32,102 bases of DNA from Deltaproteobacteria bacterium (GTDB lineage Bacteria; Desulfobacterota; Binatia; Binatales; Binataceae), in assembly GCA_003135855.1 (NCBI GenBank), contig PNBD01000102.1:74027-106128 (forward strand). Reading direction: 5' to 3'. The position numbers and the translations under genes are program-made. Below, piece after piece: positions 12,383 through 17,648 of this stretch. A model generated the notes under the pieces. It did not search any database. It had not been told where the DNA came from and saw only the letters and a list, made by a program, of their open reading frames with translations. Numbering within the stretch: the first letter of the stretch is position 1; every line of letters starts with the position of its first letter.

Positions 12383-14350
12383 TCAGGTTCGCGAACTCAA
12401 CACGTGAACCGCATCGATCAGCGCGATCACGTGATCGACGGGAGTCTCCGGCAGGATCCCGTGGCCGAGATTGAAGATGTGTCCGGGCCTGCCGGCCGCC
12501 TGATCGAGGATCGCGCGCGCTCGCGAACGAATCTCGGGAACGTCGGCAAAGAGCGCGATCGGATCGAGATTGCCCTGCACCGCGACGCTGTAATTGAGCC
12601 GCGCCCACGCGTCCGCGAGGTTCACGCGCCAATCGAGTCCAAGCACGTCGCCGCCGGCCTCGCGCATCAGCTCGAGCAGATTCCCGGTCACGGTGCCGAA
12701 ATGAATCACAGGCACTTCCGCGGGAATTGCCGCGATCACCGCCGCGGTATGCGGCAGCACGAAGCGTCGAAAATCGTCCGGCCCGAGGCTCCCGACCCAG
12801 CTATCGAAAATCTGCACGATATCCGCGCCCGCCGCGATTTGCATTTTCAGATAGTCCGCCGTCGTCCGCGCGAGCATCGCCATCAGGCGATGCCACGTCG
12901 CGGGCTGCGTGTACATGAAAGTTTTCGTCGCCTGGTATTGTCGCGACGAGCCCCCTTCGATCAGATACGACGCCAGCGTGAACGGCGCGCCCGCAAATCC
13001 GATCAGCGGCGTCTTGTCGCCGATCGCCGAATGCACCAGCTTGATCGCTTCGCCGACGAAACTGAGCGCATCCGGATCGATCGGCGGAATCCGATCCAGA
13101 TCTTCAGGACTCCGAATCGGACGATCGATGATTGGCCCGTCGCCTTTTTCGAAGTGCAACCCGACCTCCATCGGAATCAGCGGCAGCAGGATGTCCGCGA
13201 AAATGATCGCCGCATCGACGTTCAGCCGCTCGACTGCGGTGACCGTCACCTCGGCCGCAAGCTCCGGCCGCTGGCACATCTCGAGAAATTCGTGACGCTC
13301 GCGGACGCGCCGATACTCCGGCATGTAGCGCCCGGCCTGCCGCATCAGCCAAATCGGCGTGTATGAGGTCGCCTCGCGCCGGCACGCTTTCATCATCGGA
13401 TGATTTGCGAGCGCTGATCTTGTCGCCGCAGCACTCGCGACGCGTTTGTGCGCCGGCGCCTCGACCACTTCGATACGCGACGCTCCACGCTTCGTCGCAA
13501 GGATCGACGCCGCTCTGGCCGCGGTCTCGTTCACCAGATGCCCCAGTTTCGAGTGCTGAGGTTCGATGTCCACTGCGAGTCCGTAGGCGCGCAATTGCTC
13601 CGAGCACACCGGCCCGATCGATCCCACCGCCATCCGCGAAAATCCGCGCTTCACCTCCCCGCCAATTCCCTCCGCCTCGGCCATCTGCATGACGTTGGTG
13701 ACTTGATTCGAGCTGGTAAAGATCGCGACGTCCGCAGCGCCGCTCGCGATCGCATCGAGCGCCGCGCGCAGCGGCGCACGATCCAGCGGCAGCATCCATC
13801 GATAAACCGGCACCACCGTGACGCTCGCGCCGCGCGCCTCCAGACCAGCGGTGAGTTCGTGATTCGACGCGCCGTATTCCTGGATCGCGACGTGCTTGCC
13901 GCCGAGATTGCCGCGCGCCGAAAGCGCGTTCAGAACTTCCCGCCAGGTGTTCGGCTCCGGCACGACGATCGAAGGCTCCATGCCGAGTTCGCGCATCGCA
14001 CGGATCGGCTTCGGCCCGCGCGCGACGGTCGTAATCTTCGCGAGCGCCGTGATCAGCAGCGCACGTGGATGCCGCGTCTCCATTGCCTGAAATAGCGCGC
14101 GCGTGCCGACCCCGGTGAGGAAAATCACAATGTCGAAATCGCCTGCCAGCAGCCGATCCGCGAACTCCAGCGCCGCGTGATTGTCCTCGAGCGGCACTTC
14201 GCGCATCGCCGGCGCGACGATCGCGATTCCGCCGCGCCGCTCGATCATCTTGACGACTTCCGCCGCCATCCGGCTCTCGAACGCAACTACGCGCAGTCCG
14301 CCGAAGCCCGGCGTCACCTCGGGCGCGTTGGGGTCTTTTTCAGGATTCAT
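12383..14350 (-). CDS. hemE: Fused uroporphyrinogen-III synthase (HemD-like, N-terminal) and uroporphyrinogen decarboxylase (HemE, C-terminal)
   Basis: N-terminus LRVVAFESRMAAEVVKMIERRGG..FLTGVGTRALF..FTSSNQVTNVMQ..AVGSIGPVCSEQLRAYGL (HemD-like); C-terminus TPIWLMRQAGRYMPEYR..ADILLPLIPMEVGLHFEKGDGP..FDSWVGSLGPDDF (HemE). Start trimmed to MNPEKD because the longer ORF (to 14443) begins inside the inserted element. Confidence 0.9.
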   Translation of the reverse strand: MNPEKDPNAPEVTPGFGGLRVVAFESRMAAEVVKMIERRGGIAIVAPAMREVPLEDNHAALEFADRLLAGDFDIVIFLTGVGTRALFQAMETRHPRALLITALAKITTVARGPKPIRAMRELGMEPSIVVPEPNTWREVLNALSARGNLGGKHVAIQEYGASNHELTAGLEARGASVTVVPVYRWMLPLDRAPLRAALDAIASGAADVAIFTSSNQVTNVMQMAEAEGIGGEVKRGFSRMAVGSIGPVCSEQLRAYGLAVDIEPQHSKLGHLVNETAARAASILATKRGASRIEVVEAPAHKRVASAAATRSALANHPMMKACRREATSYTPIWLMRQAGRYMPEYRRVRERHEFLEMCQRPELAAEVTVTAVERLNVDAAIIFADILLPLIPMEVGLHFEKGDGPIIDRPIRSPEDLDRIPPIDPDALSFVGEAIKLVHSAIGDKTPLIGFAGAPFTLASYLIEGGSSRQYQATKTFMYTQPATWHRLMAMLARTTADYLKMQIAAGADIVQIFDSWVGSLGPDDFRRFVLPHTAAVIAAIPAEVPVIHFGTVTGNLLELMREAGGDVLGLDWRVNLADAWARLNYSVAVQGNLDPIALFADVPEIRSRARAILDQAAGRPGHIFNLGHGILPETPVDHVIALIDAVHVLSSRT

Positions 14351-14406
14351 TGGTGAATGGCCGGATCCAATCTTGCCGCGCGCGAGGCGTGCAAGTCCAC
14401 TTCCCC

Positions 14407-14414
14407 CGAGAAAC
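14407..14414. repeat. Target-site duplication, left copy (CGAGAAAC)
   Basis: CGAGAAAC directly abuts the left terminal inverted repeat; identical copy at 17641-17648. Confidence 0.9.
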
Positions 14415-14475
14415 GGTAGTGTCTCAGTTTGAAATTCTGGCATCTTGAAAAATCCGTGCGCTCGCGATCCGGCTG

Positions 14476-14484
14476 TGCGATAAT
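14476..14484 (+). promoter_or_regulatory. Candidate extended -10 (TGC-GATAAT) for the 14491 ORF
   Basis: TGCGATAAT ends 7 nt before the A of the ATG; no good -35 seen. Confidence 0.4.
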
Positions 14485-14490
14485 GCGGTC

Positions 14491-14721
14491 ATGCCAAAGG
14501 GACCGCAAGGCCAGAAGCGCCCGGCTGACGTGATCGGCAACGCCGTGCGCGTCATGCAGATCGCCACGGGCGAGATTGCAGAATCGACAGCCCCAAAGAG
14601 CGCGGCGGCCGAGCTGGGCAGCAAAGGTGGAAAGGCTCGCGCGACCGCGCTGTCTAAAAAGCGTCGGAAGCAGATTGCTCAGAAGGCGGCGGCAAAGCGT
14701 TGGAAGGCGCGGAAATCATAA
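14491..14721 (+). CDS. Small basic hypothetical protein (76 aa) with KGGxARAxxLSxxxRxxIAxKAAxxRW motif
   Basis: MPKGPQGQKRPADVIGNAVRVMQIATGEIAE...ELGSKGGKARATALSKKRRKQIAQKAAAKRWKARKS; resembles small conserved basic proteins I recall from bacterial genomes. Confidence 0.75.
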   Translation: MPKGPQGQKRPADVIGNAVRVMQIATGEIAESTAPKSAAAELGSKGGKARATALSKKRRKQIAQKAAAKRWKARKS

Positions 14722-15685
14722 AATCCAATTCTTGCTGCCCGCCGAATCTCTGCACAATTTTTCGTTCGTATTCGTGCTTGTCAGCCGATGATTCGGCCAT
14801 TTCGAGCACTCTGCCTAGATGGATTCTCAGTGCTCGCGCACCTATTTCGTTCAGGAACTGAAATAGCTTTTTTTGTCTGTTGCCGCCTTGAGCCTTTAGC
14901 GCCTTGAGGAGCATCAGAATCTTGCCATAGCTTCGCGCGAGCGGGTGATAAATGTCTCTGACGGTCAAAATTTTGAAATGCCAAGGCTTTCCGCGACCAC
15001 GTACGGGAATCTCGTACAATCGATGCCATTGCATGTATAGTTCGTTTGGAAATTCTGGCGCGTATTTTCTTGCCTCTTCTTGGACGTACAGCTTAAAGGC
15101 CTCGATCACTTCCTCTGTGGAAGGCATGTATCCAGCTAGCGCGTATATCAATCCCCTGATGCCCGATTTGGCAGAAGCGGTCACCACGATTTGCGCCTGC
15201 TTGACCATGTTGTCGTATCTGGAGCCGGTCAATTTTCCGTCAGTGCGCGCCGCCAGGATGGATTTGTAGAGGTCGATTAGAATGGTGGCGTCGTACCCGT
15301 GTGCCCTGTCACTAATCGCATTCCCCGCGGCCGAGCGAAAACGTTGAAAAACAAGGGGATTGTCGATTTTTTCTCGTAACTCGCGGCCGATGTGACCGCT
15401 CATTGTTTTGCTATTAACGAAAACGCTTAGCCTATCTCCGCGCTTACTCAATCCAATTGCCTGCGCCATTCCTCGCTTGCTGATGACCGCCGACTTCTGC
15501 GTATCGTCCAGCACGTAGCAGTCAACATCGATACCGAACTCTTGCTGAAAATTAGCGCTGCGAATCGCGCGTACGCCCCATCGTGCTGCTGCGCCCTTTT
15601 TCGCAATAGAGCGGCGTTCTTCAGGCGACAATACTTCCGCGCGAATCACTCCGCCCTTCGCCCGTCCTGTTATTTCGTCAGCCAT
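14654..15685 (-). CDS. P63C-domain-like protein (start trimmed to MADEITG)
   Basis: IRGLIYALAGYMPSTEEVIEAFKLYVQEEARKYAPEFPNELYMQWHRLYEIP...GKPWHFKILTVRDIYHPLARSYGKILMLLKAL matches the remembered P63C pattern; SD-like AAAGGAG upstream. Confidence 0.75.
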   Translation of the reverse strand: MADEITGRAKGGVIRAEVLSPEERRSIAKKGAAARWGVRAIRSANFQQEFGIDVDCYVLDDTQKSAVISKRGMAQAIGLSKRGDRLSVFVNSKTMSGHIGRELREKIDNPLVFQRFRSAAGNAISDRAHGYDATILIDLYKSILAARTDGKLTGSRYDNMVKQAQIVVTASAKSGIRGLIYALAGYMPSTEEVIEAFKLYVQEEARKYAPEFPNELYMQWHRLYEIPVRGRGKPWHFKILTVRDIYHPLARSYGKILMLLKALKAQGGNRQKKLFQFLNEIGARALRIHLGRVLEMAESSADKHEYERKIVQRFGGQQELDFMISAPSNALPPPSEQSASDAF

Positions 15686-15687
15686 AA

Positions 15688-15798
15688 ATGCAAGCATCTC
15701 CTTTTGAGCTAGTGCTTGCACTGTGCAGGAAATTCGGCCACATTGCAAGCAACGGAGATTTGCAAATGCTTGCTGATAAAGTGATTAAAATGCTTGAC
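15688..15798. repeat. Array of five TGCTTGCA/TGCAAGCA-type boxes in the P63C-transposase intergenic region (candidate operator)
   Basis: TGCAAGCA 15689-15696; TGCTTGCA 15713-15720; TGCAAGCA 15744-15751; TGCTTGCT 15767-15774; TGCTTGAC 15791-15798; centre spacings about 24, 31, 23, 24 bp. Confidence 0.65.
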
Positions 15799-15822
15799 GC
15801 TAAGCAGAAAAGTTCATATACT
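15794..15822 (+). promoter_or_regulatory. Predicted sigma70-type promoter of the transposase gene: TTGACG-N17-TATACT
   Basis: -35 at 15794-15799, 17-bp spacer, -10 at 15817-15822; ATG at 15829. Confidence 0.65.
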
Positions 15823-15828
15823 GGTCGT

Positions 15829-16680
15829 ATGAACAGATTGCCGATTGCCAAGCGCGTTCAGATTCTTTCCCTTCTCTGCGAAGGGTCTTCGATGCGTTCC
15901 ATCTCTCGGCTTGTGGACGTTTCAATCAACACGGTGACGCGCGAGCTAGTGCTTGCTGGTCAGGCGTGCGCCGATTTCCATGATCAGACTGTGCGGAATG
16001 TACAATCGAAACGCGTGCAGGCGGACGAAATTTGGAGTTTCGTCGAAATGAAGGAAAAGCAGGCGAAGCGGAAAGCCGAGCGCCCGATGCACGCCGGAGA
16101 TTGTTGGACGTGGACCGGTATCGATGCCGACTCCAAGTTGATCGTTTCATGGTACATCGGCTCGCGCGATGCAAACGCTGCTTGGGTATTCATGCAGGAT
16201 TTGTCGAGTCGGCTTGCGAATCGCGTTCAGCTAACCACGGATGGTCACAACGCCTATCTCGACGCGGTAGATGGCGCATTCGGAACGTCAATCGATTACG
16301 CGATGTTGATCAAGCAATACGGAACGCCGCCCGAAGCAGAGAAGCGGTATAGCCCTGCGGTTTGTCTTGGAACCGAACGCAGAGTCGTACACGGAAGGCC
16401 GGACCCCGATCATATCAGCACGAGCTACGTCGAGCGCGCGAATCTCACGATGCGCATGCATATGCGGCGCTTCACGCGCCTGACCAATGCGTTCTCAAAG
16501 AAATTTGAGAACCATTGCCACATGGTCGCGCTCTACGCGGTCTGGTACAACTTCGTGCGAATCCACAAGACACTCCGAGTAACGCCCGCGATGGAAGCGG
16601 GCGTCATTGATCATCTGTGTTCGTTCGATGATTTGGTTGGAATCGTCGATGAATGGGAAGCCAGAGAGAAAACACAGTAA
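15829..16680 (+). CDS. IS1-family-like transposase (start trimmed to MNRLPIAKRVQ; ORF track starts at 15688)
   Basis: MNRLPIAKRVQILSLLCEGSSMRSISRLVDVSINTVTREL HTH, VQADEIWSFVEMK, DADSKLIVSWYIGSRDANAAWVFMQDL, HISTSYVERANLTMRMHMRRFTRLTNAFSKKFENHCHMVALYAVWYNFVRIHKTL. Confidence 0.9.
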   Translation: MNRLPIAKRVQILSLLCEGSSMRSISRLVDVSINTVTRELVLAGQACADFHDQTVRNVQSKRVQADEIWSFVEMKEKQAKRKAERPMHAGDCWTWTGIDADSKLIVSWYIGSRDANAAWVFMQDLSSRLANRVQLTTDGHNAYLDAVDGAFGTSIDYAMLIKQYGTPPEAEKRYSPAVCLGTERRVVHGRPDPDHISTSYVERANLTMRMHMRRFTRLTNAFSKKFENHCHMVALYAVWYNFVRIHKTLRVTPAMEAGVIDHLCSFDDLVGIVDEWEAREKTQ

Positions 16681-16929
16681 AGCCCCGCCGCGCCGGCGCG
16701 CGGAAAGAGTTTCAGTGTTGAAACAAAAGCGTAGCGCCAGCGTCTATATAGTGGGTAAGCACGTGATTGCGTAAACCTGTCGCATCGTGGTAGAACACGC
16801 CGCATCAAGGGTTTCCGACATATTCGTCGCATCCGGCACCGTGATTGCTTCGCAATCCCGTGGTGACGTGTGTATTAATGAAACCGTGAGGAAACCGCTG
16901 TGTTTTCTGTTTGGCAAGATGCGACCGCC

Positions 16930-16951
16930 CCAAGAAAATGCGAATTCTTGG
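16930..16951 (+). promoter_or_regulatory. Stem-loop upstream of the 16977 ORF ribosome-binding site
   Basis: CCAAGAA-aatgcgaa-TTCTTGG, perfect 7-bp arms, followed by SD AGGAGGTGA. Confidence 0.4.
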
Positions 16952-16976
16952 ACGGCGCAAGCAGGAGGTGAGTTCG

Positions 16977-17300
16977 ATGGCAGATAACTCCCAACTCCTC
17001 CTGAGTATCCTCTTGTTCAACGAGGGCAATACCTGGATCGCTCAGTGCCTTGAGTGGGATATCGCGGCTCAGGACGATTCTCCGACGAAAGCGCTGCAAG
17101 CGTTTGAAGTCGTGTTTTGGACACGCGTGATGCGTGACGACGAACTTGGACGCCCGCTGTTTCAAAATGTCGAATCCGCACCCGCCGAACTCTGGCAGCA
17201 GTTCCGCGCAGGAATGCCTTTCCGAGATGCGTATCCGTTGCGGCCTCCAGCAGCAATACGAATCAGGGCCGAAGCGACCGAAATCCGACTAGTGGCATAG
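16977..17300 (+). CDS. Small HicB-like protein, possible antitoxin (107 aa)
   Basis: MADNSQLLLSILLFNEGNTWIAQCLEWDIAAQDDSPTKALQAFEVVFW resembles the HicB-like fold; strong SD AGGAGGTGA before ATG. Confidence 0.65.
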   Translation: MADNSQLLLSILLFNEGNTWIAQCLEWDIAAQDDSPTKALQAFEVVFWTRVMRDDELGRPLFQNVESAPAELWQQFRAGMPFRDAYPLRPPAAIRIRAEATEIRLVA

Positions 17301-17320
17301 GCCGGCTTCGGAGCTACGGC

Positions 17321-17620
17321 TTGATCGATCCCAATGCCGATTGGCCGGGGCCGACCTTTGCGGAATTTCGCGAAATCCTGCTGAAACGTCCGAACATTCG
17401 GATCGAACCCCCGCCGAAGAACAATATTTATCGCGGACAACGGCAGATCACTGTCTTTGTGCGCACCGCAGACAACGGACAGGAATTTGACTGGATCGCC
17501 TTCCACAACGACGATGAACTGCTGTCGCGCGGCATGGTCCTGAACGCTTGTCGCAATCTTCACACGATGCCAGAAGTGCTGGACATCGTGCACAATCTTC
17601 GTCGCCCGCCGACGCCCTAA
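17321..17620 (+). CDS. Small hypothetical protein (99 aa), partner of the HicB-like ORF
   Basis: Starts TTG with GGAG 7 nt upstream, 20 nt after the previous stop; ends 2 bp before the right TIR. Confidence 0.55.
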   Translation: MIDPNADWPGPTFAEFREILLKRPNIRIEPPPKNNIYRGQRQITVFVRTADNGQEFDWIAFHNDDELLSRGMVLNACRNLHTMPEVLDIVHNLRRPPTP

Positions 17621-17640
17621 AATCAAACTGAGACACTACC

Positions 17641-17648
17641 CGAGAAAC
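17641..17648. repeat. Target-site duplication, right copy (CGAGAAAC)
   Basis: Directly follows the right TIR and is identical to 14407-14414. Confidence 0.9.

Follow-up and report, generated by a model that had tools for sequence, protein, structure and literature searches.

A four-box TGCTTGC array as a candidate autoregulatory operator of P63C genes in phages, plasmids and IS1-like transposons

Short repeated boxes between a P63C gene and a divergent transposase gene raise the question of which protein reads them and which of the two genes they serve to control. We addressed this question in a window of 32,102 nt (the whole stretch of DNA analyzed here) from a Deltaproteobacteria bacterium (GenBank assembly GCA_003135855.1, contig PNBD01000102.1, positions 74,027 to 106,128). 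The original prediction had described five cooperative sites through which a regulator encoded by a mobile element would control both promoters and so limit transposition. Sequence inspection located all five sites at the predicted places and spacings (24, 31, 23 and 24 bp from start to start), and the site said to lie just upstream of the P63C ATG does so. Four of the sites constitute the array unit (15690-15773; Table 1). They alternate in orientation, forming two inverted pairs that end just before the P63C start codon and that read, towards P63C, GCAAGCA, TGCTTGC, GCAAGCA and TGCTTGC (boxes 1 to 4); the fifth site matches the box 8-mer at only six of its eight bases. The existence of the boxes is confirmed, and their clustering goes far beyond what chance would give. 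Within the window, all three exact copies of the 8-mer fall in the array, and the 4.5 Mb genome has 70 copies. The inverted pair GCAAGCA-N11-18-TGCTTGC is found at two places in the whole genome, both in the array, as opposed to none for a control pattern. Among 20,000 simulated stretches of 151 bp that had been matched for first-order base statistics, none held three or more boxes.

Table 1. Features of the transposon and of the box array, in window coordinates.
Feature	Position	Strand	Remarks
Target-site duplication CGAGAAAC (8 bp), left copy	14407-14414		Identical 8-mer flanks both element ends
Terminal inverted repeat GGTAGTGTCTCAGTTTGA, left	14415-14432	+	Perfect 18-bp inverted match to 17623-17640
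KGG small protein gene, 76 aa	14491-14721	+	Accessory gene of transposon group
P63C gene, 343 aa	14654-15685	-	Pfam PF10546, PHROG 2384, AF2 model
Box 4, 8-mer TGCAAGCA (15689-15696)	core 15690-15696		TGCTTGC towards P63C; between P63C GGAG and ATG
Box 3, 8-mer TGCTTGCA (15713-15720)	core 15713-15719		GCAAGCA towards P63C; abuts predicted P63C -10
Box 2, 8-mer TGCAAGCA (15744-15751)	core 15745-15751		TGCTTGC towards P63C; holds most of predicted -35
Box 1, 8-mer TGCTTGCT (15767-15774)	core 15767-15773		GCAAGCA towards P63C; outermost, transposase-promoter side
Predicted P63C promoter	15720-15748	-	TTGCAA (15748-15743), 17 bp, weak CACAGT (15725-15720)
Fifth 'box' TGCTTGAC (15791-15798)	palindrome 15791-15806		TGCTT-GACGCT-AAGCA over transposase -35
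Predicted transposase promoter	15794-15822	+	TTGACG-17-TATACT
Second dyad GTTCATA-N9-TATGAAC	15812-15834		Spans transposase -10 and start codon; similar in L012, L018
IS1-like DDE transposase, 283 aa	15829-16680	+	Pfam DDE_Tnp_IS1
Cargo ORF, 107 aa	16977-17300	+	Inside inverted repeats; no match in Pfam or NCBIfam
Cargo ORF, 99 aa	17321-17620	+	Inside inverted repeats; no match in Pfam or NCBIfam
Terminal inverted repeat, right	17623-17640	-	Perfect pair of left repeat
Target-site duplication CGAGAAAC, right copy	17641-17648

The array has a fixed geometry and contains a promoter consensus. Among 65 non-redundant complete arrays, spacings are mostly 21-23 bp for the outer pair, 32-33 bp for the inner spacing and 22-23 bp for the inner pair. 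In the same arrays box 2 contributes a TTGC at -35 distance, and the six bases before box 3 follow the pattern TAnnAT, with frequencies of 0.80, 0.82, 0.82 and 0.95 for its four defined positions. A sigma70-type P63C promoter is hence predicted inside the array, with box 4 between ribosome site and ATG. The promoter of the window was positioned by analogy with this consensus, and its -10 element is a weak promoter match. Across the 65 arrays the candidate sites overlap the predicted promoter of P63C itself and, because this promoter is embedded in the array, negative autoregulation by P63C would be the best and simplest reading.

The boxes had been assigned to a mobile element, and this element is an intact IS1-like transposon of 3,226 bp (14415-17640), bounded by perfect 18-bp terminal inverted repeats (TIRs) and flanked by a target duplication of 8 bp. 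The element is absent from a genome of the same genus (G004), in which the sequences matching its two flanks are separated by about 200 bp. The same TIR type was present on both sides in all 20 related transposase loci examined, and a perfect 8-bp target duplication in most related loci (the window and at least 15 relatives). Conservation in homologous elements, proposed as a check on the boxes, was found in 12 relatives with such TIRs, which also bear P63C and the array. At least three boxes lie within the 170 bp that precede the transposase start in 14 of 16 P63C-bearing loci (window included), the remaining two being L162, which has a variant box, and L183. P63C-free relatives have zero or one box before the transposase, and at those that are annotated another gene, often of HTH or XRE type, adjoins the transposase. 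The KGG gene is present in most relatives, P63C-free ones included.

Several further features of this transposon group and of the window were observed. Relatives in Pseudomonadota, Acidobacteriota and other groups share the TIR type, and the regulator genes between KGG and transposase differ by member. Some P63C-free members lie near or bear defense or toxin-antitoxin-like genes (RES/Xre in L018, a Shedu nuclease near L019). In the window, the KGG and P63C genes are convergent and overlap by 68 bp (14654-14721), with a similar convergent overlap in L012. The 107-aa cargo ORF has a HicB-like look (WIAQCLEWDIAAQDDSPTKALQAFE), as judged by eye only, and the ORF at 12383-14443 is a fusion of uroporphyrinogen-III synthase (HEM4) and uroporphyrinogen decarboxylase (URO-D) domains.

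The fifth site overlaps the transposase -35, as predicted, but it is separate from the array. The transposase promoter has a conserved palindrome of its own (TGCTTGACnnTAAGCA or TGCTTGACACTCAAGCA), which P63C-free members share, and palindromes related to that of the fifth site occur in the P63C-free loci L222-L225; the site was thus rejected as an array member, being part of a transposase-promoter palindrome that is retained where P63C is missing. Two dyads can be discerned at the transposase promoter of the window (15791-15834), one over the -35 and the other over the -10 and start; they are probably the transposase's own control.

Phages, plasmids and transposons from across many bacterial phyla have the array ahead of their P63C gene. 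It lies before the ATG of P63C genes that are roughly 30-60% identical and have other neighbors (L012, L013, L016, L017, L020), and L021 and L022 carry a P63C array with different spacing. The gene adjoining P63C is a transposase in the window and in L012, other genes in L013, L016 and L017, and an upstream cI in phage ST104 (L020); phage and plasmid P63C genes without any transposase carry the array too. Since the neighbors of P63C vary, we assign the array to P63C. In phage ST104 (L020, 2950-4029) the P63C gene sits directly downstream of cI, which hints at expression in lysogens; in lambda, rexAB occupies this place.

Viral contigs were scanned with the box pattern alone (three boxes of alternating orientation), applying no protein criterion. 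The scan returned at least 120 loci and, among the matches listed, 104 of 120 had a P63C domain in the right orientation starting at most 330 bp behind the array, many of these 120 loci being from phages related to one another (the 118 hits comprise 58 distinct proteins when a coarse cut-off is applied). A reversed control pattern returned two loci. The 16 listed loci without an adjacent P63C domain match are mostly coincidences inside coding frames of a few recurrent phage gene families; L036 lies at a contig edge and L091 holds a partial P63C. A further one, L071 (IMG/VR 3300046512_000152), is a cI-cro-like control region in which TGCTTGC boxes (535-610) lie between divergent cI-like and Cro-like genes, with P63C absent, and where an unrelated repressor may read the same TGCTTGC core.

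Conversely, P63C genes were collected through protein similarity, using C-terminal queries for genomes and viral contigs and adding phage and plasmid cases. A closer C-terminal alignment (A2) was used for the scan, a mixed C-terminal alignment being too divergent. In the resulting 61 non-redundant cases, two or more exact boxes precede 43 of 51 P63C genes that encode the KGG motif versus none of the only four intact genes available that lack it (L005, L150, L151, L198; Fisher p 0.0015), six further motif-less entries having been left out as fragments. Box density upstream of KGG-bearing P63C genes is about 3.0 per 200 bp, versus 0.04 in the background. Most of the eight KGG-bearing exceptions, with fewer than two exact boxes, bear a variant repeat, identified by eye: GTTAGCA in L209, L210 and the near-copy L211, with SKAGKARL-type N-termini; TGCTTAGCA/TGCTTGACA in L183 and L023, with IGGARRA N-termini; GCACGCA in L162 and L152; and GCAAGTA in L178. 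No variant repeat was recognized in the KGG-bearing L204. Site and N-terminus thus appear to change together, which suggests P63C as the binder.

On a tree of 73 P63C proteins the association with a transposase changes eight times, and at least six of these changes are forced by well-supported branches, indicating that P63C has moved repeatedly between transposon and other settings and that the array has moved with it. Further paired sites were found neither elsewhere in its own genome nor in 12 records of phages, plasmids and viruses, among which 11 contain the array itself. A wider P63C regulon was rejected on these grounds, and P63C would seem to act locally rather than as a global regulator.

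The P63C protein of the window belongs to its family by both Pfam PF10546 (35.5 bits, cut-off 26.1) and PHROG 2384 (E 1.2e-72). Its N-terminus is a KGG helix pair (residues 7-37) that is followed by a P63C-type body. In the AF2 model (pLDDT 85.1) the motif, with block means near 93, forms two helices, at 8-18 and at 21-36, ahead of a mixed body. Sequence and fold searches of the PDB gave no match, so that structure does not back DNA binding by the KGG segment. The best named match in a BFVD fold search was p63 of Myxococcus phage Mx8, followed, with weak scores and low TM-scores, by phage repressor-domain, antirepressor and Bro-N proteins. No KilA-N or Bro-N domain was detected in the sequence, P63C being the only Pfam match at E 0.1. 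The KGG small protein matches PHROG 2384 over residues 43-73, its C-terminal part resembling the P63C N-terminus. P63C was reportedly described in a 2002 paper. In the literature searched, subscription papers aside, the P63C domain is mentioned only in passing and no DNA site for it was found, nor was the box sequence found in print.

We regard it as quite probable that P63C uses the four-box array as its autoregulatory operator, binding it via the KGG helix pair and shutting off its own synthesis. The main competing account, which we consider possible and less probable, is a shared operator that serves P63C chiefly to repress the divergent transposase and so to limit transposition. It draws on the position of the array between both start codons in the window and in the 12 related TIR-bounded transposons, and on the outer pair, whose distance upstream of the transposase -35 is 0-20 bp in several members. 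This last position, however, would fit activation of the transposase as well as repression, the fifth box is linked to the transposase and not to P63C, those members of the transposon group that have no P63C lack the array, and the array is equally kept where the transposase is absent. As it accompanies P63C in phages and plasmids that have no transposase, the notion of an operator dedicated to the divergent promoter pair is not supported, and the constant job of the array would be control of P63C itself. In the transposons, P63C may plausibly control the transposase as well.

As to the element-encoded regulator of the original prediction, P63C is the likely binder, as judged from the linkage between boxes and N-termini, and its other candidate, the KGG small protein, is not linked to the boxes. 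Although this protein has the KGG helix motif in common with P63C and is encoded by most of these transposons, the array is missing from those that carry the KGG gene but not P63C, and phage P63C loci have the array with no KGG small gene seen beside P63C (e.g. L013, L017, L020), making it an improbable binder. We give slightly less credence still to binding by the divergent neighbor, the transposase, or by a host factor: the transposase N-terminus is helix-turn-helix-like, just under the Pfam cut-off, and the boxes of L071 suggest that unrelated repressors may read the core, but the array tracks P63C across phyla and differing neighbors, and transposases without P63C have no array. Location within a transposon might also point to end-binding or transposition sites of the transposase. 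This is highly unlikely, and was rejected, because the transposon ends are the 18-bp TIRs, both devoid of TGCTTGC, and the array is internal to the transposon and occurs in phages as well.

Under autoregulation, P63C, probably as a dimer or higher oligomer, would recognize TGCTTGC half-sites through its N-terminal KGG helix pair and bind two inverted pairs, the sites of a pair being about 22 bp apart and the pairs themselves about 54 bp. These distances are near two and five DNA turns, and the sites would therefore lie on one face. The box pairs cover the -35, start region and ribosome site of the predicted P63C promoter, so that P63C binding would stop its own synthesis; with the outer pair near the divergent transposase promoter, the P63C level may also affect transposase expression.

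More tentatively, and with somewhat less than even confidence, we propose that the KGG helix pair represents a novel, small module for DNA recognition whose code can be read, and that P63C and its operator form a self-contained switch moving between phage and transposon. If so, TGCTTGC, TGCGTGC and TGCTAAC variants that track N-terminal changes would make up the code, the module would be shared by phage P63C regulators and the small protein of an undescribed IS1-like transposon group, and members of this group would exchange the regulator in a single slot. P63C proteins, which have no assigned function, are frequent in phages, plasmids and transposons; one such P63C region was matched in 87 of 5,426 complete E. 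coli genomes, and over most of its length in 45. The proposed operator, the predicted promoter inside it, the candidate 30-residue recognition segment and the natural site variants make this function testable. The analysis also exposes a widespread transposon group that appears to exchange control genes with phages.

The IS1 family is characterized by TIRs and a target duplication of 8-9 bp. The transposon resembles this family in its short TIRs, its 8-bp target duplication and its DDE_Tnp_IS1 domain (28.3 bits, cut-off 24.1). It differs in its transposase, which scores below the cut-off of the NCBIfam transpos_IS1 equivalog (62.9, cut-off 100) and is one continuous 283-aa frame, the InsA/InsB' frameshift layout of classical IS1 being absent, as well as in its own TIR sequence, KGG gene, regulator slot and cargo. 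The gene beside the array is a member of the P63C family, the function of which PHROG lists as unknown. The operator of lambda CI at OR is that of an autoregulated phage repressor, and the putative P63C operator is alike in having several half-sites, in phased inverted pairs, over the regulator's own promoter and beside a divergent promoter. On the P63C side, by contrast, the two half-sites of a pair stand 22 bp apart, unlike a single compact dyad, and the part predicted to recognize them, a KGG helix pair of 30 residues, has no Pfam match.
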